From NCBI GenBank assembly GCA_040219515.1, contig JAVJSI010000012.1:124001-188000 (forward strand): 64,000 bases of DNA, in the 5' to 3' direction. The notes under the pieces are model-generated. The model saw only the letters and a list, made by a program, of their open reading frames with translations, ran no database searches and was not told the origin of the DNA. This DNA is from Acidimicrobiales bacterium (GTDB taxonomy: Bacteria > Actinomycetota > Acidimicrobiia > Acidimicrobiales > Aldehydirespiratoraceae). This document shows, in pieces, positions 24,712-46,679 of this stretch. Each line of letters begins with the position of its first letter. Positions within the stretch are counted from its first letter, which is position 1. A program made the position numbers and the translations under genes.

Positions 24712-25722
24712 TCAGCGGATGTCGAACCGGGCCAGTCGCAGCTCGGTGTTGCCGACCCTGATGTAGGCCCCATCGGTGAGTTCGTGGTCCTCTCCTTCGC
24801 CGACGGGGATCCACGGGGCTCCGGAACCGGATCGCACGAAGGTGCCCAGGCGCGATCCGAGGTCGCTCACCGACAGGCGCCAGTCCTCGACGCGGATGAG
24901 TGCGTGCCGACGGGAGATGACGGCGGCCGGGTCGGGGATCGCCACCGGGATGGCCGAACCGTCGATCACCCGCGGGTCCTCCTCAGGGGCTCGACCGATG
25001 ACCGCGCTGCGGGTGAGGACGTGTTGGGCGGACCCCAGCGCGAGCGAGGCGAACGGAAGTCGGGGCCCGCTGGTGAGTATCCGGCTGATGTTCTCGAGCG
25101 AGAGCCCGTCGATGTGGCAGAAGCGGGCCACGGGGTTGACGAGATGACCGCGTGGACACAGCACGCCCTGCACGATGGGCAGCCCTTCCTCGGGCGGCGC
25201 GTCGGACGGCGACGCGATCGTGATCGGCATCGGATCCCGTTCCTTCCGGGCCGGCTCGGCCAGGTCGATGCTGGTCGGTCGGTCGTCCAGCTCGGCCCAC
25301 CACGGACGGTCCGATGGCGTTGCGGCGGCCCCGACCTCGAGACCGGCCGCAGCCCAAACCCCCGGCGCGGCGGCAGTCGGGTCACCGCTCGCGCCGATGG
25401 TGTGGTGTCGGTCGAGGGGGAGCGGAACGGTGGGTGTGTCGGTCGAGGGACCCCCGGTCGAGACGACCTGCAGACCGTCGTAGCGGTGGATCACGGGACC
25501 GTCGTCGCCGGCGAGGATGACCCCACGAGGGCCATCGAGCCCGCGCATCACGGTGTCGGCGTCGCCGGGGCCGACCGGTGCGTCCACGAGCTCGAGCAGC
25601 TGACGCATGTAGCCGTCGGGAATCGCGTCCGGCCCGGCCAGGAACACCACGCCGTGATGGCCGACGACGGCGATGCCGCGTCCGGGTACGAGGCGGATCT
25701 GGTGGAGATCGAGTTCGGTCAT
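24712..25722 (-). CDS. FHA-domain protein
   Basis: 336 residues. A C-terminal forkhead-associated domain (about 240-330) has the phosphothreonine-binding pattern: IGRAPEEDP, ISRRHALIRVEDWRLSVSDLGSRLGTFV and ELTDGAYIRVGNTELRLARF. The N-terminal 90 residues (VGHHGVVFLAGPDAIPDGYMRQLLEL) form a separate beta-rich domain resembling the phosphatase-like sensor part of related FHA proteins. A central zinc-knuckle-like segment (VLCPRGHLVNPVARFCHIDG) is present. ATG 25722 overlaps the kinase stop (TGATG), so the two are translationally coupled. It is the probable phospho-reader of that kinase. Confidence 0.88.
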   Translation of the reverse strand: MTELDLHQIRLVPGRGIAVVGHHGVVFLAGPDAIPDGYMRQLLELVDAPVGPGDADTVMRGLDGPRGVILAGDDGPVIHRYDGLQVVSTGGPSTDTPTVPLPLDRHHTIGASGDPTAAAPGVWAAAGLEVGAAATPSDRPWWAELDDRPTSIDLAEPARKERDPMPITIASPSDAPPEEGLPIVQGVLCPRGHLVNPVARFCHIDGLSLENISRILTSGPRLPFASLALGSAQHVLTRSAVIGRAPEEDPRVIDGSAIPVAIPDPAAVISRRHALIRVEDWRLSVSDLGSRLGTFVRSGSGAPWIPVGEGEDHELTDGAYIRVGNTELRLARFDIR

Positions 25723-26510
25723 CACGTCAGCTCCTCGGCTGTCGAGTCGAGCGCATCGGCGAGCGATGCAGCGGTCGGATGGCGCGACGCGGGATCGTCG
25801 GCCACGCAGCGTTCGATGATCGCACGGACCTCGCCGGGGAGCGCCGGGTCGATCACCGGCGGATGGTTGACGACATGACGAAGACGGTCGAGCACGCCGG
25901 TCGAGGCGAGCGGCGGCCGCAGACTCGCCGTCGACAGCACCGCGTGAAGGGTGAGTCCCAGTGACCAGACATCAGAGGCCCGGGAGGCGGCGCCACCCAT
26001 CGCGACCTCGGGGGCCACGAAGTCCGGTGTGCCCCGGGGGCCATAGGCCGACGCATCGCCGCCGGGCAACACCTGGGCCAACCCGAGGTCCATGAGACGA
26101 CCGCGGTGACCGTCGCGTGCGATGGTCGCGGGCCGGATGTCTCGATGGGCGACCCCGAGGCCGTGGAGCGCGTCGGCGCCTCGCGCCGCGTCGGCCACGA
26201 TCCGCAGCGTCGTGGCGGTGTCGAACGTTCCATCGGCAAGCGTGCCGTCGTAGCGACGCATCGCGTAGTAGAGGACGCCGTCGGAGTATCCGGCGTCGAC
26301 GATCTCGGCCAAGCCGGGGTCGTCGAGCTGCGCGTAGAGCCTGATCTCGTTCGACAGGCGCCGGAACTCGTAGTCGCTCGCCGACCGATCGAGGATCTTG
26401 ACGACGAGTTCGTCACCGGCGCCCGAGTCGGACGTGGCGGTGTAGAGCGTGCCGTAGTTCGCAGGGCCCAGCTCGGCAACGATGGTGTAGCCGGCGATTC
26501 GCGTGGTCAT
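25722..26510 (-). CDS. Soluble Ser/Thr protein kinase, divergent active site
   Basis: A 262-residue kinase domain without transmembrane segment. Visible motifs: a glycine loop AELGPANYGTLYTA, the ATP-binding Lys in LVVKIL, HRDIRPATI for the catalytic loop and MDLGLAQVL in place of DFG, then GTPDFVAPEVAMGG and DVWSLGLTLHAVL. Catalytic Asp and Lys remain, but the Mg-binding Asn of HRDxKPxN is Thr and DFG is DLG, so activity may be weak. It overlaps the permease gene (ATGA, 4 nt) and the FHA gene (TGATG), giving a writer/reader pair in the left arm of the island. Confidence 0.9.
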   Translation of the reverse strand: MTTRIAGYTIVAELGPANYGTLYTATSDSGAGDELVVKILDRSASDYEFRRLSNEIRLYAQLDDPGLAEIVDAGYSDGVLYYAMRRYDGTLADGTFDTATTLRIVADAARGADALHGLGVAHRDIRPATIARDGHRGRLMDLGLAQVLPGGDASAYGPRGTPDFVAPEVAMGGAASRASDVWSLGLTLHAVLSTASLRPPLASTGVLDRLRHVVNHPPVIDPALPGEVRAIIERCVADDPASRHPTAASLADALDSTAEELT

Positions 26511-29964: not shown

Positions 29965-30768
29965 ATGAAGCGCTCCCATTTTCTCATGGTGGTCGGCGTG
30001 CTCGTCGTGGGATTCGTCGGTTTCGGGGCCGTCATCGGCGGCTACGCCACGATCGACCTCCCTGGGGGTTCGGATGGAACCGATCTTCCCGACGGTTTCG
30101 ACGAGGCCGGCATCGACCGGGTCGAGGATGACGAGGACGACGACGACGGAGCATCGGTCTCCCTGCCGGACCTGCGGGACCTGACCGTGGCCGACGCCCG
30201 GCAGGCGTTGCGCGACCTCGGCCTCTCGGTCCAGGTGAGCGATCGCACGGTGGACGACGAGGACCTCGACGGTGTGGTCCTGTCGCAGGGCCCGGGGCCG
30301 GGCGTCGTGGTGGAGGCCGGTTCCGAGGTCGACCTCTCGGTCGGGACCTACGTGGCCCTCGAACCCGAACCGACCCCTGCGCCCACGCCGGCCCCGACCC
30401 CTGCGCCCACGCCGGCCCCGACGCCCGCGCCCACCCCGGCCCCGACTCCTGCACCCACGCCGGCCCCGACTCCTGCACCGACCCCGGCTCCTACACCCGC
30501 GCCGACGCCGGCTCCCACCGTCAACATCAGCGGGCCGGGGTCGCTGCCGCCCAACGGCTCGTCGTCCTACACGGCCAATGCCACGAACGCGACGCAAGCC
30601 GTGTGGTCGCAGAGCGGCGACTGTCGCATCTCCGGATCGGGCTTCACCGTGCAGGTGACCGCACCGCAGCCGTTCGCCGGGGTGACGGAGACCTGCACCC
30701 TGACAGTGACCGTTTCGGGTCCCGGCGGCAACGCGAGCGACTCGCACACCATCGCCGTGAGCGGCTGA
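29965..30768 (+). CDS. Free-standing PASTA-domain membrane protein
   Basis: 267 residues. An N-terminal transmembrane helix ([21 protein letters not shown]) places the rest outside. A PASTA domain (about 64-130; [21 protein letters not shown] and [24 protein letters not shown]) is followed by a linker of about a dozen PTPA units and a C-terminal Ig-like domain ([21 protein letters not shown], two cysteines). PASTA modules bind peptidoglycan fragments and are normally part of a PknB-type kinase; here the sensor is separate. It stands at the head of the right arm, behind a GGGAACC-type promoter. Confidence 0.88.
30371..30523. repeat. 12-bp repeats encoding a PTPA linker
   Basis: About a dozen copies of a CCGAC(C/G)CC(T/C)GC(G/A)CCC-type unit code for alternating Pro-Thr-Pro-Ala. 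Synonymous variation between copies suggests selection for the peptide. A rigid wall-spanning spacer is the likely role. Confidence 0.85.
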
Positions 30769-31510: not shown

Positions 31511-31927
31511 ATGATCGTCGTTGTCGTGGTGGCGGTCGTGGTCATCGTCGTCCTTGTCGCCGCCGTGCTGGTCTTCCGTCGCGCCGACCCGGTGTTCTCG
31601 GACCCTGTGCTCGCGGAACCCCCACGCGCCGATCCCCCGCGCGCCGAACCCCCGCCTTCCGAACCGTCGGTCGGCGCCGCTCCGGAGCCGAGGCGGGACG
31701 CAGCACCGGCGCAGCGGTCGCCCGGACGTGGTGGCACCCGAAGGCCCCGGCAGTGTCCTCGGTGCGGTGCCCACGATCCGGTGCCGAGTGGGCCGACCGG
31801 TTTCGACTGCGCCCACTGCGGCGCCGGCTGGAATGTCGACGAAGGTGAATGGCCGGACGTGCATCTCGTACTCTGGCGCAGAACCAACGAGCAGGCGGCG
31901 TCGTCCGTCGAAACGAGAGATCAGTGA
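31511..31927 (+). CDS. Membrane-anchored zinc-ribbon protein
   Basis: 138 residues. An N-terminal hydrophobic helix of almost only Val/Ile (about 2-22) is followed by an Arg/Pro/Glu-rich linker and a C-terminal CPRCGAHDP...FDCAHCGAGWNV zinc ribbon. GGGAG 7 nt before the ATG is a good ribosome site. The stop overlaps the GTG of the vWA gene (GTGA). Zinc ribbons often accompany TerY-P kinases; here the module is on its own membrane anchor. Confidence 0.8.
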   Translation: MIVVVVVAVVVIVVLVAAVLVFRRADPVFSDPVLAEPPRADPPRAEPPPSEPSVGAAPEPRRDAAPAQRSPGRGGTRRPRQCPRCGAHDPVPSGPTGFDCAHCGAGWNVDEGEWPDVHLVLWRRTNEQAASSVETRDQ

Positions 31928-32715
31928 GCTACACCCAAGAGATCAGTCGCGTCACCCCCGGGTGCATCATGTTCCTGGTGGACCAGTCCGGTTCCATGGC
32001 CGAGCCGTTCGCGGGCGACGAGACGACCACGAAGATGGATGGCGTGGCCACGGCCGTGAACCGCATCCTGTTGGAACTCATCCTGAAGTCGGTGAAGGAC
32101 CACGACGAAGGACCGCGTCACTACTTCGACATCGGTCTGATCACCTACGGCGCCGAGGTCGGCTCGGCGTTCGGCGGATCGCTCGCCGGCCGCGACCTCG
32201 TGTCGATCGCGGAACTGACCGAGAATCCGCTCGAGCCGGAGCAGCCGATCTGGCTCGCACCGAAGGCCGAGGGCCGCACCCCGATGGGGGAGGCGATCAA
32301 TCAGGCCGGACGGATCCTGGCCGGTTGGGCCAACGAGCACCTCGACAGCTTCCCTCCCATCGTCATCAACATCTCCGACGGTGCGGCCACCGACGAGGCC
32401 GACGTGTGGGTTCAGCGCCTCACCTCGATCCACACCGAGGACGGCGCGCTGCTGTTCTTCAATCTCAATGTGGGTCGATTCCGCGACGAGCCGGTGATGT
32501 TCCCCTCCAGCGTCGACGAGGTACCGAACGAGTACGCCGCCCAGCTCTTCGAGTACTCGAGCCAGCTTCCGCCGGCGATGCTGCAGGAGGCGTCGCGTTC
32601 TCGGGCAACGCCGCTGGCCGCAGGAGCCCGCGGGTTCGGCTACAACGGCGATTTCCACGCGCTCACCGACTTCCTCGTGACCGGCACGCAGGTCAGCCTC
32701 GATCGAGCGACATGA
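31924..32715 (+). CDS. TerY-like von Willebrand factor A domain protein
   Basis: 263 residues from GTG 31924, which overlaps the previous stop. The MIDAS motif is intact: FLVDQSGSM (Asp20, Ser22, Ser24), then FDIGLITYGAEVGSAFGG, TPMGEAINQAGRIL (the Thr ligand) and IVINISDGAATDEAD. This is the cytoplasmic TerY-type vWA fold, which binds a divalent metal and a protein partner. It is followed by a PP2C phosphatase and a YegI-like kinase, the arrangement known as the TerY-P triad of stress-signalling systems. No TerD-type gene is present in the window. Confidence 0.92.
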   Translation: MSYTQEISRVTPGCIMFLVDQSGSMAEPFAGDETTTKMDGVATAVNRILLELILKSVKDHDEGPRHYFDIGLITYGAEVGSAFGGSLAGRDLVSIAELTENPLEPEQPIWLAPKAEGRTPMGEAINQAGRILAGWANEHLDSFPPIVINISDGAATDEADVWVQRLTSIHTEDGALLFFNLNVGRFRDEPVMFPSSVDEVPNEYAAQLFEYSSQLPPAMLQEASRSRATPLAAGARGFGYNGDFHALTDFLVTGTQVSLDRAT

Positions 32716-32725
32716 TCAGCGCGAC

Positions 32726-33490
32726 ATGACGAGCGTGCGGCTGGACCTCGCGTCGTTCGGGCAGGCGAAAGACGGCTATCGATCCCACGAGTGGGAGGAC
32801 AGTGCCGCCCACAGCTTTCGCTCCGGCCGCTTCGCCGTGGCCGACGGCGCCACCACTGCGTTTCGGGCCCGGGCCTGGAGCCACATCCTCACCGCCGGGT
32901 GGCTGAGCGACCCCTTCGCGATCGACGACGACGACGAATGGGTCGAGTGGTTGGCTCGCCGGGCCGCGATCTGGGATGCCGATCTCGACGGACGAGAGGA
33001 CGACGCGCCGTTCTATGTCGTGGCCGCCGCGAACCGCGGCAGCTTCGCCACGTTGCTCGGTGTCGAACTCGGCGTCGACGACGGCGAGTTGTGCTGGCGG
33101 GCCCTCGCCGTGGGCGACGCCTGCCTGTTCCATGTGCGCGAGGGCGCGTTGCTGCAGTCCTTTCCGGTCACCGATGCCGCCGAGTTCGGGAGTCACCCGG
33201 CACTCGTGCACTCGGGAACCACCACGGGCCCGGGCGCTGTCCGGGGGGTCGAACGGGCGCGGGGCAGCCTCATCGAGGGTGATCGAGTGCTCCTCGCGAC
33301 CGACGCGCTGGCCGAATGGGCGCTCCTCGCCGGGAGCACCGACCCGGGCGTGTGGGAGCGTCTCGGCACCATCGACGAAGAGGGATTCGGCCGTCTCATC
33401 GCCGAACTCCGGGCCGGCGATGCCCTGCGAAACGATGATGTGACGCTGCTGCGCTGTGGCGTCTCGATCAGTTCGGCGGTCCGGCGATGA
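32726..33490 (+). CDS. PP2C-like Ser/Thr protein phosphatase
   Basis: 254 residues of the PP2C_2 type. Metal-binding positions are recognisable: FAVADGATTAF, ALAVGDACLFHV, LLATDALAEWAL and the C-terminal RNDDVTLLRC. No membrane segment. It lies 10 bp after the vWA gene, and its stop overlaps the kinase start (ATGA). It is expected to remove the phosphates added by the next kinase. Confidence 0.92.
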   Translation: MTSVRLDLASFGQAKDGYRSHEWEDSAAHSFRSGRFAVADGATTAFRARAWSHILTAGWLSDPFAIDDDDEWVEWLARRAAIWDADLDGREDDAPFYVVAAANRGSFATLLGVELGVDDGELCWRALAVGDACLFHVREGALLQSFPVTDAAEFGSHPALVHSGTTTGPGAVRGVERARGSLIEGDRVLLATDALAEWALLAGSTDPGVWERLGTIDEEGFGRLIAELRAGDALRNDDVTLLRCGVSISSAVRR

Positions 33491-34743
33491 CCGACGAGGT
33501 GCGCTGGCCCGACGCAGGCGAGTACGCCCAGGCGGCGCGTTCCCCGACCGAGTTCCTGCTCGACGACGAGCTGCGCCAGGGCAAACTCCGCACCTCGCCG
33601 TTGGGCATTCCCCTTCCCGCGACCGGTCGGAACGCGGCGGTGTTCCGGCTGTTGCTCGACGAGGGGTCCGTGGCGGTGCGCTGCTTCACGCGTCAGCCTC
33701 GCGATGGTCGCCGTCGCTACGACGCGCTGCGGGCCTACGTCGAGCGCACAGCGATCCCTGCGTTCGCGGACGCGCGGTGGCTGCCCGATGCCATCGCGGT
33801 CGGCGCGCAGCGGTTTCCGATGATCCGGATGGAGTGGGTCGACGGTCTCAACCTCGACCGCTATGTCGAGGCGCACATCGAGGACCGCAACCGGCTCGCC
33901 GACCTCGCCGAATCATGGATCGAGCTCCTCCACGCGCTCGAGGCCTCCGACGTCGCCCACGGCGACCTTCAGCACGGCAACATCCTGGTCGAGGCCGACG
34001 GCGCCATCCGCCTCGTCGACCTCGACGGGATCTGGACGCCGGCGACGACCGATCTCGTGCCCAACGAGGTCGGTCATCGCAACTATCAGCATCCGCAGCG
34101 GATCACCGGCGGCTACTGGGGGCGTTCGGTCGATGCCTTCTCCGCGCTCGTCGTCGCGGTCAGCCTCGAAGCGCTCGCGCAGGAGCCGGGGCTGTGGTTC
34201 GAGCACAACGACGGCGCCAACAACCTCCTCCTCGCCGAGGCGGACTACATGGCGCCCGGCGACACCCCGGTGTGGGCCGACCTCGACGCGTTGGCCGATC
34301 CGGTGCCGTCTCTGGCCGCCCGCCTTCGAGACGCGTGTGCGGCCGACGTGGCTCGGCTGGCGAAGCCCACGGAGATGGTCCGGGTACACGGCATGCTCAC
34401 CACCCCTGCGCCGCCTGCCTTCATCACCGAGCGCATCGGGCCCGCAACCGGCGAGACACCCGTCGTGCCGGACTCGGCCCCGGCCCCGGCCCCGGCACCG
34501 GCACCGGCGACACCGGTGCCCGTGCCTCGCGACGACCGACCCGACCTCGACCCGGTCGGCGGAGAAGCGCCCCGGCCTCCCGAGCCGACGCGGCCTGATC
34601 CCGCACCGAGCCCCGGCGCCGGTTCGAGTGGGCTCTCGGCCGGCATCGTCTTCGTCCTGTTCGCCACGATCGTCGCGATCATCGTGGTGTTCGTCGGCGT
34701 GGCGACCCTCGGGCTGACCACACCGGTGGGATGGCTGGCGTGA
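33487..34743 (+). CDS. YegI/TerY-P-type protein kinase with C-terminal membrane anchor
   Basis: 418 residues. The kinase core carries VAVRCFTRQ (Arg65 at the usual Lys), MIRMEWVDGLNLDRYV, VAHGDLQHGNILV (catalytic Asp160, Asn165) and LVDLDGIWTP (Asp178) in place of DFG. GHRNYQHPQR follows. HGDLQHGN with LVDxDG is diagnostic of the TerY-P kinase branch. A Pro/Ala-rich linker (about 330-380) leads to one transmembrane helix (IVFVLFATIVAIIVVFVGVA). The 3' end overlaps the next kinase gene. Confidence 0.92.
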   Translation: MTDEVRWPDAGEYAQAARSPTEFLLDDELRQGKLRTSPLGIPLPATGRNAAVFRLLLDEGSVAVRCFTRQPRDGRRRYDALRAYVERTAIPAFADARWLPDAIAVGAQRFPMIRMEWVDGLNLDRYVEAHIEDRNRLADLAESWIELLHALEASDVAHGDLQHGNILVEADGAIRLVDLDGIWTPATTDLVPNEVGHRNYQHPQRITGGYWGRSVDAFSALVVAVSLEALAQEPGLWFEHNDGANNLLLAEADYMAPGDTPVWADLDALADPVPSLAARLRDACAADVARLAKPTEMVRVHGMLTTPAPPAFITERIGPATGETPVVPDSAPAPAPAPAPATPVPVPRDDRPDLDPVGGEAPRPPEPTRPDPAPSPGAGSSGLSAGIVFVLFATIVAIIVVFVGVATLGLTTPVGWLA

Positions 34744-36743
34744 CCGACACGTTCGACATCGCCACGTTCGGTGCCTACGAGACCAGGGAGTTTCTCGGAA
34801 TGGGGAGCTTCGCAGAGGTGTACCGCTGCTATCACGCCGATCTCGACACCGAGGTGGCGGTGAAGGTCCTGCACCGACACCTGTCTCGTCAGCCCGATGT
34901 GCGCGAGCGGTTCCTCCAGGAGGCCCGCATCCTCTGGCGAGCCGAGCACCCCAGGGTCATCCCGGTGCATCACGTCGACGTACTGCCCTCGGGACAGCCC
35001 TACTTCGTGATGCGGCTGGCCGAGTGCGGCAGCCTCGGATCGCAGATCGAGCGACGGATGGTCGAGTCCGGGGGACCGTTCGAGTTGCCGGCGGTCGTGG
35101 GGCTGGCCGGCGAACTCGCCGAGTGTCTCGATGCCGTCCGGGCCCGAGGGGTGGTCCATCGCGACCTCAAACCGGAGAACGTGTTGGTGCGCCGGGTTCG
35201 AACCCCCGACCCCGACCGCGTCGCTCGCTGGGGTCTGCCCGCCGATGAGCGGCTCACCCTGGCCGACTTCGGACTCGCGAAGGTGTTGGCCGAGGGCACG
35301 AGCATGTTGTCGCAGTTGGGCGGGACCCCCCACTACATGGCCCCCGAGCAGATGTCGCTCACGGCTCGGCTCGACTGGCGGGCCGATCTGTTCGCCGTGG
35401 GAGTGATGACGTTCGAGCTGGCGGTGGGCGAGGTGCCCTGGCCGGAGCGAACCGTGGAGAACGCACGGGACATCGATCTCGACCTCGTCGACGCTCACGA
35501 GCGCAGCGGGGGGACTGTGCCGATCGGCTTCGACGACGTGATCCGGCGAGCCGTGATGCACGACCCCGAGGATCGCTACGAGTCGCCGTCGGCGTTCGTG
35601 GACGCGCTGACCGAGCTCGTCGTCGATGATGCCGTCGACGACGACGAGCCCATGACGCACTCGATCATCGAGAGAATTCGGATCCTCGCCGACGGACTGG
35701 ACGATTCCGTGCGTCGCGGCGACCGGCCGGTCCGCACTCTCGTGGCCGACGCACTCGACCGGCCCCGACGCCTGGTGGTGGTCGGTGGAGAGCGAACGAC
35801 GCCCGACGGGCTCACCCTGCGGATGCTCGGACGACGGGTTGAGCCGGGCCGAGGATCGCTGCTCGGCCATCGGGTCACGAGGATCCGCCAGGGGGACGAG
35901 CTGCGGCTGCTGGCCCGCACCCTCGCCGGCGACGAGGTGCTCGGCCACGTGGACCATGACGACAGCGGGCGACTGCGCCTGGAGCTGGCGGTGTCGCCAT
36001 GGTCGGTCGACACCCTCGAGCTCGAGCTGCCGGGTGACCATTTCGGCGGGGTCGAACTCGTCGACGTGCCCTGGTCGGTCGTGCGGGCCGAGGCGGGTGG
36101 CGCCGCGGCGTTCATCCGCGAGGCGGATCTGGTCGTGCTCGGACTGCCCATGTCGACGGCGGTCGCGGCCGCCAACCTCGACACGCTGCTCGGCCTCCTC
36201 CTGGAGTCGGTCGTCGGTCCGGTCGGCGTGGTCGGAGTCCAGGCCGCTGCCTCCTTCGAACAGATGCCGTTGCGCCTGCCGGGCACGCTCGAGGTCCTGT
36301 CGTCCGACGACGCCGCCGAACTGCGGGCGTTGACCGATGACGTCCTCGGCGGCGAGCGGGGGGTCTCGCTGGCGGCCAGCCGGGCGCTGGCCCTGCTGGC
36401 CCCCGAAGCCGAACGCTTCGACGACGAGCTCGACGCGATACGCCGCGACGCCCCCGAGCTCGACCGATTGATCGCCGCCCGATCCGTGGTGGTGCAGCGC
36501 TCGGTCACCGTCGACGAGCGCGACGAGCTGGTGCATCTGCTGGGTCGCCGGGCGCCCCAGACCCGGCTCGGGCTGGCGCCCGACGCGGACCCGGCGACCG
36601 TTCGCAGGGTCGCCGCCGAGCGTCGCCGACGTTGGGAGTGGGCGCGCTCGCGTGCGACCTCGGGCGGTGAGCGGGCCCGGATCCTCGATGCTGCGCTCGG
36701 CGCTCTCGGCGGGCTGATCGAACTTTCCGAAGGAGCGAACTGA
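34740..36743 (+). CDS. Ser/Thr kinase fused to a degenerate dynamin-like GTPase domain
   Basis: 667 residues from GTG 34740 (GTGA overlap; ATG 34731 is possible). Residues 12-295 are a complete kinase: GMGSFAEVY, Lys42, HRDLKPENV (140-148), DFG (176-178) and APEQ. Residues 328-667 resemble an actinobacterial dynamin-like GTPase: LDRPRRLVVVGG opens the G1 strand and GHRVTRIRQGDELRLLART matches the switch region. VELVDVPW (438-445) stands where DTPG is expected. The P-loop GxxxxGKS is replaced by GGERTTPDG, so nucleotide binding is probably lost. The tail (LLGRRAPQTRLGL, ARILDAALGALGGL) fits the helical stalk. No membrane helix is seen. The dynamin call is my reading of patterns, not a search. 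Confidence 0.88.
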   Translation: MTDTFDIATFGAYETREFLGMGSFAEVYRCYHADLDTEVAVKVLHRHLSRQPDVRERFLQEARILWRAEHPRVIPVHHVDVLPSGQPYFVMRLAECGSLGSQIERRMVESGGPFELPAVVGLAGELAECLDAVRARGVVHRDLKPENVLVRRVRTPDPDRVARWGLPADERLTLADFGLAKVLAEGTSMLSQLGGTPHYMAPEQMSLTARLDWRADLFAVGVMTFELAVGEVPWPERTVENARDIDLDLVDAHERSGGTVPIGFDDVIRRAVMHDPEDRYESPSAFVDALTELVVDDAVDDDEPMTHSIIERIRILADGLDDSVRRGDRPVRTLVADALDRPRRLVVVGGERTTPDGLTLRMLGRRVEPGRGSLLGHRVTRIRQGDELRLLARTLAGDEVLGHVDHDDSGRLRLELAVSPWSVDTLELELPGDHFGGVELVDVPWSVVRAEAGGAAAFIREADLVVLGLPMSTAVAAANLDTLLGLLLESVVGPVGVVGVQAAASFEQMPLRLPGTLEVLSSDDAAELRALTDDVLGGERGVSLAASRALALLAPEAERFDDELDAIRRDAPELDRLIAARSVVVQRSVTVDERDELVHLLGRRAPQTRLGLAPDADPATVRRVAAERRRRWEWARSRATSGGERARILDAALGALGGLIELSEGAN

Positions 36744-38965
36744 TGGCAGGCGACACATCCCTTCTCGTGGTGGTGGGCCGACGCACGCTTCACGGCGCGG
36801 TCCTCACCGGGGACGGGCCTCTCGCGGTCGCGGACCGCGAGGCATTCGACGAGATCGCGGCGCTGCGCCGTGGCGATCTGGGTCCGCTCCGCCGCTGGAT
36901 CGCGCAGACGGCGCGCGACGCCGGCTCGACGCACCCGAGCATCGACCGCATCGTCCTCGTCGCCGGCCCGTGGGCCCGACCGCCGCTCGTCGCCCTGGTC
37001 GGTGAACGAGTCGACGGTGTCGAGGTCACCGAGATACTCGACGACGGGCTCGCCTCGCTGGCCGGGGCCGCAGACCTCGTCGAGGACCGCGAGCGGTTCG
37101 TCCTCCTCGACACGGATCGTCGCCTCCTGCTGCGGGTCGCAACTGACGAGGGCATGGTCATCGAAGAACGCGTCGAGATCGCGGGCTCGGCATCCGAGGC
37201 CGAGGTCGCCGCAGCAGCCCACGTCGTCGAGCACTTCGACCCCGAGCGCGACGGGCCGACCGTGGTGGTGGTCGCCGACGCCGAGCACGACGTCGGGTCG
37301 TTGACGACCGCCCTCACGGCCGGAGGCTGGGTGATCGTCGCCGCGTCGACCGACCGGCTGACCGAGGGTGCGGCGTCGATGTTGACCGGCTTCTCGATCG
37401 CCGACCGTTCCGGTGGTCAGTCCCAGGTTCTGGGCCCCAACGAGTGGGAGTACGACACGGCGACACTCTCACCGATCGGTGCCCCTGACGTCCGTGGCGA
37501 TGTTCCGACTCTCGACCCAGCCGAATCGACCGAGGCCTCCGACCTCCTCGATCGGCCGACGACGCTCGCCGGAGAGGAGATCATCGCCGACCGGCCGACC
37601 GAGGAGGCTGTCGACCGGCCGACCGAGGAACGTGATCGGCCGACCGAGGAGGCTGTCGACCGGCCGACCGAGGAACGTGATCGGCCCACGGTGGAGAAGC
37701 GCTCCGAACTGCCGCCTCCGGTTGCTTCGCCCACGGGTGCGGCGGGGCCGCGCACCTCGAGCGATGTCGCGGCCGACCGCGTGGCGGCGGCGACGGAGGG
37801 CGGACCCGAGATTCCGGCGCTGGTCGCAGGGGCGAGCATCGGGGCCATCACCCTGGCGGGCGTGGCCGCGCTCGTGATCCTCGGGGGCCGTGAAGAGGTC
37901 CTGCCGGCCGCCGAATGCGACGCCGCCTTCGCGGCGACGATCGATGCCGACGCCGTGGTCGCGCTTCCCTCGGCCGGGCCGGACGTGACGGAGCGGTGGC
38001 AGGTCGATCTGGGTGGGCCCTCTGCCGTGGCGCCCGCCATCGTCGGCGGCATCGTGGTCGGTGTCGACGTTGGCAGCGGCGACACCCCCTCCGTCGTGCG
38101 GGCCTTCGACGCACGCAGCGGTGAACAGGTCTGGTCGCGCATGCTCAGCGGTCGTGTGTTCACTGCACCGGTGGTCCAGACGGGATCCCCCGATCTGGTG
38201 TGGATCACCGACGACTCCGGCCGTCTCACTGCGTTCGACGCATCCGGCACCGAACTGGGCGGATGCTCGATCCCGACCGCAGTGCGGTCCCTGGCCGTCG
38301 TCTCGACCGATGCGGGCCCCGCGTTGGCCGTCGTCGGCACCGAGGGCGGCGTCGTTCGCGGCCTCGCCTCGGGGCGGGAACTGTGGTCGGTGCAAACCGG
38401 GGACGCCGTCCGTTCCGTGATCTCGACCCCGGCGGGAATCGCCGCGGTGACCGACGGGGGCGAGCTGCTGATCCTCGACCCGGACAATGGCGCGATCCGG
38501 GTCCGCACCGGACTTGGTGGGTCGGCCTCGTCGCCCCTGCTCGTGCTGGGTGACGACCTGGTGTTCGCCACCGCCGATGGAGAGGTGGTCAGGGTGACGA
38601 CCGGCGGCGAGGAGGTGTGGCGCACCACGCTCGATCGCGAGGTCCGGGCCCCGCTGGCCACCGTCGACGGCGACGTCTTCGTGCCCTCCGTCGACGGTTC
38701 GCTCGTGCGGGTCGACGGTGATGACGGCACGGTCGTGGACGAATTCGATCTCGATGCCGCCGTCGACGGTGGTGTCGCGGCCCTCGACGGCGGAGTGGCG
38801 ACCGGCGACGATCTCGGACGTCTGGTGATCCGCGACCTGAGGACGGACGAGCCGTTGGCGATCGTCGAGTTGAACGGCGCGGTCAACGGGGGTCTCGGGG
38901 TCGGCGACGATCTGATCGCCGTGGTCGACTCGGGTGGGATCCTACGGGTGCTCGAGGTGCGCTGA
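36743..38965 (+). CDS. Membrane protein: actin/Hsp70-like N-terminus plus PQQ-type beta-propeller
   Basis: 740 residues; AAGGAG lies 8 nt before the ATG, which overlaps the previous stop (TGATG). Residues 1-220 resemble a reduced actin/Hsp70-type ATPase: a first strand LLVVVGRRTLHGAVL and the late segment IDRIVLVAGPWARPPLVALVGERV with GLASLAGAADLV, where phosphate loops are eroded. An acidic linker with DRPTEEAV/DRPTEER repeats (about 286-315) leads to one transmembrane helix (about 357-380). About 350 extracytoplasmic residues of PQQ-like propeller blades follow (FDARSGEQVWSRML, GREGG-like turns, GLASGRELWSVQTGDAV, VTTGGEEVWRTTLD). Last gene of the right arm; probably its envelope sensor. 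Confidence 0.82.
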   Translation: MAGDTSLLVVVGRRTLHGAVLTGDGPLAVADREAFDEIAALRRGDLGPLRRWIAQTARDAGSTHPSIDRIVLVAGPWARPPLVALVGERVDGVEVTEILDDGLASLAGAADLVEDRERFVLLDTDRRLLLRVATDEGMVIEERVEIAGSASEAEVAAAAHVVEHFDPERDGPTVVVVADAEHDVGSLTTALTAGGWVIVAASTDRLTEGAASMLTGFSIADRSGGQSQVLGPNEWEYDTATLSPIGAPDVRGDVPTLDPAESTEASDLLDRPTTLAGEEIIADRPTEEAVDRPTEERDRPTEEAVDRPTEERDRPTVEKRSELPPPVASPTGAAGPRTSSDVAADRVAAATEGGPEIPALVAGASIGAITLAGVAALVILGGREEVLPAAECDAAFAATIDADAVVALPSAGPDVTERWQVDLGGPSAVAPAIVGGIVVGVDVGSGDTPSVVRAFDARSGEQVWSRMLSGRVFTAPVVQTGSPDLVWITDDSGRLTAFDASGTELGGCSIPTAVRSLAVVSTDAGPALAVVGTEGGVVRGLASGRELWSVQTGDAVRSVISTPAGIAAVTDGGELLILDPDNGAIRVRTGLGGSASSPLLVLGDDLVFATADGEVVRVTTGGEEVWRTTLDREVRAPLATVDGDVFVPSVDGSLVRVDGDDGTVVDEFDLDAAVDGGVAALDGGVATGDDLGRLVIRDLRTDEPLAIVELNGAVNGGLGVGDDLIAVVDSGGILRVLEVR
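37597..37688. repeat. 45-bp repeat encoding DRPTEE units
   Basis: Two copies of a 45-bp unit (15 codons, DRPTEEAV plus DRPTEER) are nearly identical, within the cytoplasmic linker of the propeller protein. Confidence 0.75.
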
Positions 38966-42721: not shown

Positions 42722-44149
42722 ATGGATGTCCGCCCCGGCTATTTCGACGAGATGCACGGCGACGGGTCTGTGCTGCGAGCGCCCTATCGCCAGTACCAGG
42801 ACTGGTTCGCCGACGAGGACCCTCGCCGGCTGCTGAAGAAGCGCACCGACGCAGAGGCGCTCTTTCGCCGAACCGGCATCACGTTCAACGTCTACGGCGA
42901 GGAGGACGGCGATGAGCGGCTGATCCCGTTCGACATCGTTCCCCGCATCATCGCGGCCCGCGAATGGGCCCGGCTCGAACGGGGTATCGAGCAGCGGGTG
43001 CGGGCGATCAACGCCTTTCTCCACGACATCTATCACCGTCAGGAGATCCTGCGAGCCGGCCGCATTCCGGTCGAAGTGATCGCTCGAAACGATGCGTTCC
43101 TCCCGGAGATGATCGGAATGACACCGCCCGGCGGCGTCTACACCCACATCGTCGGCATCGACCTCGTGCGCACCGACGACGACGACTTCTATGTGCTCGA
43201 GGACAACGCCCGCACGCCGTCGGGCGTGTCGTACATGCTGGAGAATCGCGAGACGATGCTCCAGATGTTCCCGGAGTTGTTCACCAAGAGCCGGGTGCGT
43301 CCCGTGAGCGACTACCCGCGCGATCTCCGGACCTCGCTGGGGGCGTGTGCACCGAATGTGACCACTGGTCGACCGGTCGTGGCGGTTCTCACCCCGGGCA
43401 TCCACAACTCGGCCTATTTCGAACACGCCTTCCTCGCCGACCAGATGGGTGTCGAGCTCGTCGAAGGGCACGACCTCTCCGTGGTCGACGGACGAATCGC
43501 GATGCGCACGACCGAAGGACCCGAGCCGATCGACGTGCTGTATCGGCGCGTCGACGACGACTATCTCGATCCACTGACGTTTCGCCCCGATTCCCGACTC
43601 GGTGTGCCAGGAGCGATGGACGTGTATCGATCGGGTGGCCTCACCATCGCCAACGCTCCGGGCACGGGAATCGCCGACGACAAGGCGATCTACTCGTACA
43701 TGCCCGACATCATCGACTTCTACACCGGCGAGAAGCCGCTGCTGCGCAACGTGCCCACCTGGCGGTGCTCCGAGCCCGACTCGCTCTCCTATGTACTCGA
43801 GCACCTCACCGAACTCGTGGTCAAGGAGGTCCACGGATCGGGCGGCTACGGCATGCTGGTCGGACCGGCGGCGAGCAAGCGCGAGGTGGCCGCGTTTCGG
43901 CGCAAGCTCAAGGCCAAGCCCGCCAACTACATCGCCCAGCCCACACTCGCGCTCTCGACGGTGCCGATCCTCACCCGGGCCGGGCTCGCGCCGCGCCACG
44001 TCGACCTGCGTCCGTTCGCCCTCGTGTCGCCCAGCAACATCCGCATCACGCCCGGTGGTCTCACCCGCGTCGCGATGAAGCGCAATTCGCTCGTGGTCAA
44101 CTCGAGTCAGGGTGGCGGCACGAAGGACACCTGGGTGATGGAGGACTGA
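42722..44149 (+). CDS. Circularly permuted ATP-grasp protein
   Basis: 475 residues with conserved blocks of the permuted ATP-grasp family (former DUF404/407): FNVYGEEDGDERLIPFDIVPR, AREWARLERGIEQRVRAIN, NDAFLPEMIGMTPPGGVYTH, DFYVLEDNARTPSGVSYML and KEVHGSGGYGMLVGPAAS. Such proteins are predicted amidoligases making peptide or amide bonds. It is the first gene of a five-gene cluster; its stop overlaps the alpha-E gene (TGATG). Confidence 0.94.
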   Translation: MDVRPGYFDEMHGDGSVLRAPYRQYQDWFADEDPRRLLKKRTDAEALFRRTGITFNVYGEEDGDERLIPFDIVPRIIAAREWARLERGIEQRVRAINAFLHDIYHRQEILRAGRIPVEVIARNDAFLPEMIGMTPPGGVYTHIVGIDLVRTDDDDFYVLEDNARTPSGVSYMLENRETMLQMFPELFTKSRVRPVSDYPRDLRTSLGACAPNVTTGRPVVAVLTPGIHNSAYFEHAFLADQMGVELVEGHDLSVVDGRIAMRTTEGPEPIDVLYRRVDDDYLDPLTFRPDSRLGVPGAMDVYRSGGLTIANAPGTGIADDKAIYSYMPDIIDFYTGEKPLLRNVPTWRCSEPDSLSYVLEHLTELVVKEVHGSGGYGMLVGPAASKREVAAFRRKLKAKPANYIAQPTLALSTVPILTRAGLAPRHVDLRPFALVSPSNIRITPGGLTRVAMKRNSLVVNSSQGGGTKDTWVMED

Positions 44150-45090
44150 TGCTCGGACGCACCGCCGGCGGCCTCTACTGGATGTTCCGCAACCTCGAAC
44201 GCAGCGAGAACACCGCCCGCCTCATCGAGGCGGGCATGCGCATCGCGCTCACCCGCTCCGACGACGTGGACAAGGAATGGGAATCGGTCGTCACGACCGC
44301 AGGCCAGCGGGCCATGTACCTCGAGCAACACGACCGTTTCGAACAGTCGAAGGTGATCGACTTCCTCCTGCGCGACCGCAGCAATCCCTCGAGCGTGCGG
44401 TCGGTCGTCGAGTCGGCCCGGGCCAACGCCCGGTCGGTGCGCACCGCGCTCACTCGAGAGGTGTGGGAAGCCACCAACGACACCTGGCTCACGGTACGAA
44501 ACGCCCTCGCCCGGCCGGTGCTCGACCGCGAACTTCCCGACGTGCTCGGCGTGATCCGCCAGGAGAGCGCGATCGTGCGCGGTGCCCTCCACGGCACCAT
44601 GCTGCGCAACGACATCTACAACTTTGCTCGCATCGGCACGTTCATGGAGCGCGCCGACAACACCGCCCGCATCCTCGACGTGAAGTACTACGTGTTGTTG
44701 CCATCCGCCTCGTTCGTGGGCACCTCGCTCGACAATGTGCAGTGGGAGACGATCCTGCGGTCGGTCTCGGCACAGCGCGCCTATCGCTGGCGCAGCGCCG
44801 GTGAGCCCAGCGCCAAGGGCATCGCCGACTTCCTCATTCTCGACCAGCAGCTGCCCAGGTCGCTCGTGTTCTGCTATCGCAAGATCGACGAGAACCTGGG
44901 CTACCTCGGGGTCGACTACGGCGAGCAGCACCCGTGTCATGCCGTGTCCCGTGATCATCTCGAACGGCTGTCCCGCCACGACATCGACTCGATATTCGAC
45001 CATGGCCTCCACGAGTTCCTCCGGGAGTGCATCCAGACCACGAACCAGCTGGGCGCCTCCATCGAACACGACTATCGGTTCTCGGCGTAA
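44149..45090 (+). CDS. Alpha-E domain protein
   Basis: 313 residues, all-helical. RTAGGLYWMFRNLERSENTARLIEAGMRI is the hallmark N-terminus, with RIGTFMERADNTARILDVKYYVLLP as the repeated central block and a conserved LILDQQLPRSLVFCY. Always found beside permuted ATP-grasp proteins and thought to act as their partner; the biochemical role is unknown. ATG 44149 overlaps the preceding stop by one base. Confidence 0.94.
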   Translation: MLGRTAGGLYWMFRNLERSENTARLIEAGMRIALTRSDDVDKEWESVVTTAGQRAMYLEQHDRFEQSKVIDFLLRDRSNPSSVRSVVESARANARSVRTALTREVWEATNDTWLTVRNALARPVLDRELPDVLGVIRQESAIVRGALHGTMLRNDIYNFARIGTFMERADNTARILDVKYYVLLPSASFVGTSLDNVQWETILRSVSAQRAYRWRSAGEPSAKGIADFLILDQQLPRSLVFCYRKIDENLGYLGVDYGEQHPCHAVSRDHLERLSRHDIDSIFDHGLHEFLRECIQTTNQLGASIEHDYRFSA

Positions 45091-45093
45091 CGC

Positions 45094-45939
45094 ATGCGGC
45101 TGACGATCTCGCACTCCACCACCTACCGCTACTCGGAGCCCGTGCGCTACGGCCTCCAAGAGCTGCGCCTCCGGCCGAGCGACGAAGGAACCCAGAGCGT
45201 CGTCAGCTGGGACGTGTCGCTCGTCGGCGCCGAGCACCAGCTGTCGTTCGAGGACCACTTCGGCAACCAGGTCGAGCTGGTGGCGCTGTCACCGGGTGCC
45301 ACCGAGACCACGGTGACGGCGACCGGCGTGGTCGAGACCGTCGACACGAGCGCGGTGGGCGCGAAGCACGTGGGGCACACCCCGCTCTGGTTCTACGAAC
45401 GGTCGACCCCACGTACGACCGTCGGTCACGGCGTGCGCCAGTTCTGCGATCTCGTACGCCGTGGCGACGACGACATCGCTCGGTTCCACGATCTCTCCGC
45501 CGCGATCCGCGAGTCGGTTTCCTACGAGACTGGCGGCTCCGACATGGAGTCGACGGCCGAAAGCGCGATCGAGGCCGGCGCCGGTGTCTGCCAGGACCAC
45601 GCACACATCTTCATCGCCGCCGCCCGACACCTGGGCTACGGAGCCCGCTACGTCAGCGGGTATCTCCTGATCGACGACGTCATCGATCAGGATGCCACCC
45701 ACGCCTGGGCCGAGGTGTGGGTCAATGGCCTGGGATGGCTCGGATTCGACGTGTCCAACGGAATCTCGCCCGACGACCGATACGTTCGGGTCGCGACCGG
45801 GCTCGAGTACCGCGACGCCGCCCCGATCTCCGGGATCACATCCGGCGCGGGTGACCAATCGCTCGAAGTGGAGCTCCAGGTGCACGACGGTTCAGGACAG
45901 CAGGAAACAGGACAGCAGGGTTCGGTGGCCCAACAGTGA
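45094..45939 (+). CDS. Transglutaminase-like cysteine peptidase, first copy
   Basis: 281 residues. The N-terminal beta domain starts LTISHSTTYRYSEPVRYGLQELRLRP. The catalytic triad lies in GAGVCQDHAH (Cys), DATHAWAEVWV (His) and WLGFDVSNG (Asp). A Gln/Gly-rich tail follows. Family members cleave or form isopeptide bonds and accompany the ATP-grasp/alpha-E pair. It begins 3 nt after the alpha-E stop and overlaps the Anbu gene (GTGA). Confidence 0.93.
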   Translation: MRLTISHSTTYRYSEPVRYGLQELRLRPSDEGTQSVVSWDVSLVGAEHQLSFEDHFGNQVELVALSPGATETTVTATGVVETVDTSAVGAKHVGHTPLWFYERSTPRTTVGHGVRQFCDLVRRGDDDIARFHDLSAAIRESVSYETGGSDMESTAESAIEAGAGVCQDHAHIFIAAARHLGYGARYVSGYLLIDDVIDQDATHAWAEVWVNGLGWLGFDVSNGISPDDRYVRVATGLEYRDAAPISGITSGAGDQSLEVELQVHDGSGQQETGQQGSVAQQ

Positions 45940-46679
45940 CGTATTGCGTGGGCGTGCAGCTCGATCGTGGCCTCGTCTTCATGTCCGACACCCGAACGAA
46001 CTCCGGTGTCGACAACATCTCGGTGTTTCGCAAGATGCACCAGTGGTCGGTGCCCGGCGACCGGGTGATCACCATCTTGAGCGCGGGGAACCTGGGCACC
46101 ACACAATCGGTGATCAGCCTTCTCGAGGAACGCACCAAGGTGCCCGAGGACAGGCAACCGTCGATCCTCGAGGTGCCGACGATGTTCCAGGTGGCCGAGC
46201 TCGTCGGTGGGCTCGTGCGCGACACCATTGCCCGTCACCTCGAGGGCGGCCAGCAGGCCGAGGCGAAGTTCAACGCCACCCTGATCGTCGGCGGGCAGAT
46301 CGCGGGAATGCCGCCGCGCCTGTTCCTCGTCTACCCGGAAGGCAACTTCATCGAGGCCAGCGACGACACCCCGTTCATGCAGATCGGCGAGACCAAGTAC
46401 GGTCGCCCGATCCTGCTGCGGGCCTACGACCCGAAGATGTCGTTCGAGGACGCGGTGAAGCTCCTGCTCGTTTCGTTCGATTCCACCATCAAGGCAAACC
46501 TCTCGGTCGGCGCACCCCTCGACGTGTCGGTCTACGAAACCGACTCGCTCGAACCCCGACCGATCCTGCGCATCGACGGCGGCGACGAGTACTTCCGGTC
46601 GATCTCCGACCGTTGGGGTGACGCGCTGCGCCGGGCGTTCCAGTCGCTGCCCGACTTCGATTTCGACGGCTACCGGTGA
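45936..46679 (+). CDS. Anbu (proteasome-type) protease
   Basis: 247 residues of the bacterial Anbu/BPH branch of Ntn-hydrolases. It reads M-TYCVGVQLDRGLVFMSDTR, so removal of Met would expose the nucleophilic Thr. DRVITILSAGNLGTTQSVISLL and TLIVGGQIAGMPPRLFLVYPEGNFIEA are conserved. It forms open-ring assemblies in relatives. It starts at GTG 45936 within the transglutaminase stop. The cluster suggests synthesis and removal of a peptide tag: ATP-grasp/alpha-E to attach, transglutaminase and Anbu to process (hypothesis known from genome surveys). Confidence 0.94.
   Translation: MTYCVGVQLDRGLVFMSDTRTNSGVDNISVFRKMHQWSVPGDRVITILSAGNLGTTQSVISLLEERTKVPEDRQPSILEVPTMFQVAELVGGLVRDTIARHLEGGQQAEAKFNATLIVGGQIAGMPPRLFLVYPEGNFIEASDDTPFMQIGETKYGRPILLRAYDPKMSFEDAVKLLLVSFDSTIKANLSVGAPLDVSVYETDSLEPRPILRIDGGDEYFRSISDRWGDALRRAFQSLPDFDFDGYR

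Follow-up and report, generated by a model that had tools for sequence, protein, structure and literature searches.

A predicted Ser/Thr kinase fused to a dynamin-derived pseudo-GTPase in a TerY-P-like operon of an Acidimicrobiales bacterium

Results

A gene in a 64,000-nucleotide stretch of an Acidimicrobiales bacterium genome (assembly GCA_040219515.1, contig JAVJSI010000012.1, positions 124,001 to 188,000; hereafter the window) encodes a Ser/Thr protein kinase fused to a C-terminal half that, by sequence comparison, is homologous to IniC-type bacterial dynamins, both in its G-domain half and in its tail, and is a pseudo-GTPase. The fusion was found in this genome only. Its parts are as follows (window coordinates):

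34740..36743, + strand: kinase/pseudo-dynamin gene (Ser/Thr kinase fused to pseudo-dynamin), 667 residues; Pkinase match, and BLAST and profile matches of the C-terminal half
34776..35579, + strand: kinase domain, residues 13-280; Pfam Pkinase E 3e-36
35652..36263, + strand: pseudo-G-domain, residues 305-508; strand-by-strand alignment A4 to IniC-type dynamin GTPase domains, 13.6 bits
35775..35810, + strand: degenerate P-loop, residues 346-357; VVVGGERTTPDG in place of dynamin AIAGKVKAGKST
36060..36074, + strand: degenerate G3, residues 441-445; VDVPW for IDTPG, with Asp kept and Gly lost
36237..36251, + strand: degenerate G4, residues 500-504; VQAAA for LSRAD
36372..36692, + strand: conserved dynamin C-terminal region, residues 545-651; best-conserved part, i-Evalue 1.3e-6

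The gene starts with GTG; from an alternative ATG, at 34731, the protein would be three residues longer. The initial annotation had placed a complete kinase ahead of the dynamin part, and indeed all Hanks-type motifs are present in the Pkinase domain: the VAIK lysine is K42, HRD occupies residues 140-142 and DFG residues 176-178. As these motifs are intact, we infer that this Hanks-type Ser/Thr kinase is active. The sequence strings quoted in that annotation were all found where it had located them. The antisense strand of the gene is open for 837 codons, and long antisense open frames are common at high G+C. The sense frame is favoured because its third-position G+C content (GC3) is as expected, being 0.86 in the kinase part and in the C-terminal half alike. 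The approximately 360 residues after the kinase gave no match in Pfam or NCBIfam models.

We used residues 301-667 as a BLAST query against the genomes of 149 relatives. Besides the gene itself, the single match was the intact dynamin of G003, a genome from the same genus (L007/L013; E 3.9e-5, query 8-149). The same search against 395 genomes of the class returned intact dynamins in G357 (E 4.1e-5) and G239 (E 3.0e-4); a place in G225 (L012, query 268-358) was dropped as a chance match, its frame containing a stop. The three intact dynamins carry GRVKAGKST or GKVKAGKST, DTPG and SRAD(E), match Dynamin_N with E about 1e-11, and are each the second gene of a tandem, IniA/IniC-like dynamin pair. 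At its 3' end, the G003 frame runs into a DsbD_N domain at the contig end, which may be a genuine fusion or an assembly join. In the reverse search, the G003 dynamin had the kinase/pseudo-dynamin gene as its sole match in the window's genome (E 1.4e-4).

Profile comparisons gave the same picture. Over two colinear segments, at profile positions 18-155 and 380-489, a dynamin profile matched the C-terminal half with E 5e-10 (nominal database of 5000), and the best of 2000 shuffles reached E 0.076; with a wider dynamin profile the match had E 9.9e-9, and one shuffle reached 0.0024. Scored apart, the G-domain half obtained 13.6 bits and the tail 25.1 bits (E 3e-6), and 0 of 5000 shuffles reached either score. 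When the whole genome was scanned, the pseudo-dynamin tail ranked first (E 1e-5), followed by short P-loop-region matches, and neither BLAST nor profile searches of this genome found an intact IniC-type dynamin. The E value of 5e-10, the shuffles and the reciprocal matches place the C-terminal half in the dynamin superfamily by common descent. The proposal of the initial annotation, a kinase joined to a dynamin-like domain without a P-loop, thus agrees with the profile and shuffle results, the reciprocal search, the motif alignment and the predicted model described below.

To locate the GTPase motifs, the C-terminal half was aligned with 40 dynamin GTPase domains (alignment A4), with a nearly gapless register from the N-terminal helix through G3. 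The dynamin P-loop GKVKAGKST corresponds to GGERTTPDG, so that the G1 Lys and Ser are lost; the Thr of ECT at G2 is missing too; ADAVVYLMRHLH of dynamins is replaced, together with the following helix, by ADLVVLGLPMST; and the G4 strand NAIAVLSRAD reads VGVVGVQAAA, without Arg-Ala-Asp. The core strands retain their order and spacing, and the sole survivor among the nucleotide contacts is the G3 Asp. In IniA, the G1 Lys and Ser, the G2 Thr and the G4 Lys and Asp contact phosphate, Mg and nucleoside (PMC6715688). Moreover, a block of about 125 residues of helical stalk, between G4 and the distal helices, is deleted: approximately 225 family positions separate the two matched segments, versus approximately 100 query residues. 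The protein thus has neither the G1-G4 motif set of a functional GTPase (GxxxxGKS/T, Thr, DxxG, N/T/RxxD) nor a helical stalk/trunk with a membrane-contacting tip, and the dead half would no longer bind GTP. The loss of the P-loop GKS and the change of DTPG to DVPW, both read earlier by eye, were seen in the alignment. The order of a bacterial dynamin, which had also been claimed, holds for the register of core strands and motifs and for the tail; the full order is not there, as the residues after G4 are missing.

The tail LLGRRAPQTRLGL matches the dynamin tail consensus ERLLGxxGxxxxxRLGL, as anticipated in the initial annotation, and LLGRRAPQTRLGLAPDADPATVRRVAAERRRRW also aligns to the dynamin tail. 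We then modelled the C-terminal half from an alignment of the query and 53 dynamins. The mean predicted local distance difference test score (pLDDT) was 64.6, with blocks of the last 85 residues (583-667) mostly at 79-97. The top Foldseek matches of the model in the PDB (E 2e-5 to 5e-4) were IniA (2e-5), the Cj-DLP pair from Campylobacter (9e-5), BDLP (3e-4) and mitofusins, and VIA-align gave Z 8.4 to mitofusin-2 and 7.1 to Cj-DLP. The structural comparison with dynamin folds that had been suggested as a check is consistent with that proposal, with a model that is itself dynamin-biased.

Residues 583-667 also had structural matches to J-domains (Jac1, Z 7.0; 2ys8, 7.0; Rbj, 6.4; the J-domain of PFA0660w, 5.4); helical domains readily reach such Z values. 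Comparison of the tail with a DnaJ profile gave P 0.002, at the LG..A register. The HPD motif is absent from the pseudo-dynamin tail and from dynamin tails, and the tail profile found no J-domain match among the sequences of the PDB. The last 85 residues of IniC-type dynamins (e.g. L076:11255-11464) are likewise J-domain-like, with LG(L/V)..dA... and no HPD, and lie near Hsp70-like genes. A J-like tail beside Hsp70-like genes suggests a possible link between the dynamin tail and Hsp70.

No second fusion was found in searches of 149, 395 and 397 genomes, and no close relative of the C-terminal half came up when 85,000 species were scanned by pattern.

The fusion is the fourth gene of an operon, in the order TerY (VWA), PP2C, kinase, kinase/pseudo-dynamin and membrane beta-propeller protein. 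The other genes are:

31849..32715, + strand: operon gene 1, TerY-like VWA protein; PADLOC TerY E 7e-55
32726..33490, + strand: operon gene 2, PP2C-like phosphatase; PADLOC PP2C E 6e-31
33487..34743, + strand: operon gene 3, TerY-P-type kinase (STK_OB family); PADLOC STK_OB E 1.5e-59
36743..38965, + strand: operon gene 5, membrane beta-propeller protein; Pfam PQQ_2 E 3e-17, layout read from the sequence

All junctions overlap or nearly touch (32715/32726, 33490/33487, 34743/34731 or 34740, 36743/36743), and GC3 of genes 1-4 is 0.83-0.87. As in the TerY-P/STK_OB module, genes for a TerY VWA protein, a PP2C and a Ser/Thr kinase are adjacent; unlike in that module, the kinase lacks a C-terminal OB-fold or zinc ribbon, and two further genes, for the kinase/pseudo-dynamin and the membrane beta-propeller protein, follow. 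The STK_OB match of gene 3 covers only profile positions 3-285 of 562; where the OB-fold would be, the protein has a Pro-rich linker followed by a transmembrane segment, the latter read from its hydrophobic C-terminus. Relatives of this kinase were found in eight genomes of the order, in seven of which VWA and PP2C genes adjoin it, while the eighth stretch stops at a contig edge. The kinase frames of most of these relatives are much longer than gene 3, and no kinase/pseudo-dynamin gene stands beside the triad in the stretches read from these eight genomes. A TerY-P-like STK_OB module has been reported to be anti-phage (PMC11090510, crediting Anantharaman 2012 and Gao 2020).

The fifth gene encodes a cytosolic N-domain of approximately 222 residues, an acidic linker of RPTEE-type repeats, a transmembrane segment and a PQQ-type beta-propeller. 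We found no full-length relative of the protein, and its N-domain (window 36743-37417) had no detectable relatives. An alignment-free, single-sequence model of the N-domain (pLDDT 40) had many matches to the ASKHA fold (actin/Hsp70/sugar-kinase), which we take as a hint only that this domain is possibly actin/Hsp70-like. An alignment to Hsp70 made by eye was not supported by profile searches, hhalign, dynamic programming or MAFFT: the domain had no hidden Markov model match to the Hsp70 ATPase domain, and gap-tolerant dynamic programming gave z 1.4, with 24 of 300 shuffles scoring equal or higher.

Hsp70-like genes are common neighbours of the intact dynamins. An Hsp70-like open reading frame lies on the same stretch in 55 of 80 intact IniC-type dynamin loci fetched from named genomes (L060-L139), as in 8 of 12 loci fetched earlier (L048-L059); we came across no discussion of this association. 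An Hsp70 domain is present in all three neighbours that we scanned (Pfam 5e-45 to 4e-54). In most of the neighbours whose sequences were read, a linker, a membrane segment and an external part of variable kind follow; the external part contains a beta-propeller-like repeat in L051 (one of the three scanned) and a GH99-like domain in L048. The fifth gene resembles these proteins in layout only, and because the sequence tests give no support, we keep its kinship with Hsp70 as a hypothesis.

Discussion

The best explanation of these data, which we regard as probable, is an active kinase that carries a pseudo-GTPase derived from an IniC-type dynamin as a docking scaffold in a membrane-linked signalling complex. 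The scaffold reading follows from the loss of nearly all nucleotide-contact residues while the core strands and the tail are kept. The dead dynamin half would hold the kinase in a membrane-linked phospho-switch and would most probably dock through its conserved tail. The sensor is likely to be the membrane beta-propeller protein encoded by the next gene, and the partner is likely to be the TerY-P kinase with its membrane anchor; the PP2C is the putative opposing phosphatase. Kinase activity, docking, the choice of partners and the sensor role of the beta-propeller are argued from motifs, gene order and precedent, one precedent for a pseudo-GTPase scaffold being CENP-M (reviewed in PMC10211241). 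The initial annotation had offered two roles for the pseudo-GTPase: that of a kinase scaffold fits, whereas sensing of membrane curvature is unlikely, because most of the stalk/trunk has been lost and the C-terminal half shows no membrane segment. In known bacterial dynamins, stalk and trunk carry the membrane contact.

Several points weigh against the scaffold. Selection on the dead domain, or its conservation, cannot be shown because no ortholog of the fusion was found, and the partner relations are taken from gene order alone. The G-domain half by itself reaches just the 13.6 bits given above. Most of model residues 149-244 have pLDDT below 50, since the full-length alignment misplaces G4. 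Finally, the model was built on a dynamin alignment, which biases it, and we therefore count the fold match as consistent with dynamin ancestry and not as independent evidence.

The dynamin half could instead be a drifting, non-functional relic of a past fusion or insertion, only the kinase being of importance. Its occurrence in a single genome, the large internal deletion and the degradation of every GTPase motif speak for this, but the frame stays open through 360 codons, its GC3 equals that of the kinase part (0.86), and unconstrained decay should have broken the still recognisable tail (E 3e-6) and the register and spacing of the core strands; we consider a relic unlikely. That the half is an unrelated domain, its likeness to dynamins coming from chance or composition, is most improbable: it has no Pfam or NCBIfam match and only 18-27% identity to dynamins, but the matches are reciprocal and colinear in several genomes, and no shuffle in 5000 equalled either half. 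Hardly more credible is a C-terminal half that still binds a nucleotide or other small ligand at a non-standard site and so gates the kinase; the Ras-like strand order appears kept, with the G3 Asp, but the counterparts of those IniA residues that touch phosphate, Mg and nucleoside (PMC6715688) are replaced here.

A chaperone-like co-operation, in which the J-like tail and the degenerate Hsp70/actin-like start of the fifth gene, rather than the pseudo-G-domain, recruit the kinase, is also rather unlikely. It draws on the J-domain matches of residues 583-667 (Z 5.4-7.0), the DnaJ profile comparison, the Hsp70-like genes at 55 of the 80 intact dynamin loci and the ASKHA-fold matches of the N-domain model. 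Against it, the tail has no HPD and no J-domain match among PDB sequences, neither the Hsp70 profile nor the dynamic-programming test of the N-domain was significant, and the ASKHA model has a pLDDT of 40. A broader and doubtful speculation is that a TerY-P-like defence or stress operon took over the remains of an actinobacterial Hsp70-dynamin membrane system: a J-tailed dead dynamin-kinase would dock on a degenerate Hsp70-like transmembrane beta-propeller receptor, and a membrane-remodelling machine would have become a phosphorylation sensor.

Compared with IniC-type dynamins, the second gene of actinobacterial IniA/IniC-like pairs, the C-terminal half shows colinear homology of G-domain half and tail but differs in its degraded G motifs, the loss of approximately 125 stalk residues and its position behind a kinase. 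IniA of Mycobacterium smegmatis (PDB 6j72/6j73) is the best Foldseek match of the model, but binds and hydrolyses GTP by means of motifs absent here (PMC6715688). The eukaryotic pseudo-GTPases CENP-M, which is used as a scaffold, and the p190RhoGAP pseudo-G-domains (PMC10211241) share a GTPase fold without catalytic motifs; unlike the protein described here, they are neither dynamins nor bacterial and are not fused to a protein kinase. A limited search of the open-access literature turned up no earlier account of a bacterial protein kinase joined to a catalytically dead dynamin, which is weak evidence of novelty. A function for the dead domain would show that bacteria can reuse dynamins as scaffolds for signalling, much as eukaryotes do with small GTPases, and would link a TerY-P-type anti-phage module to the membrane.

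Other features of the window

A second kinase gene (24712-26510, - strand; Pfam 7e-23) adjoins a gene for an FHA-domain protein, and a PASTA-domain protein with a long PTPA repeat is encoded at 29965-30768 (+ strand). At 42722-46679 (+ strand) lies a gene cluster for a circularly permuted ATP-grasp protein, an alpha-E protein, a transglutaminase and a proteasome-like (Anbu-type) protein.
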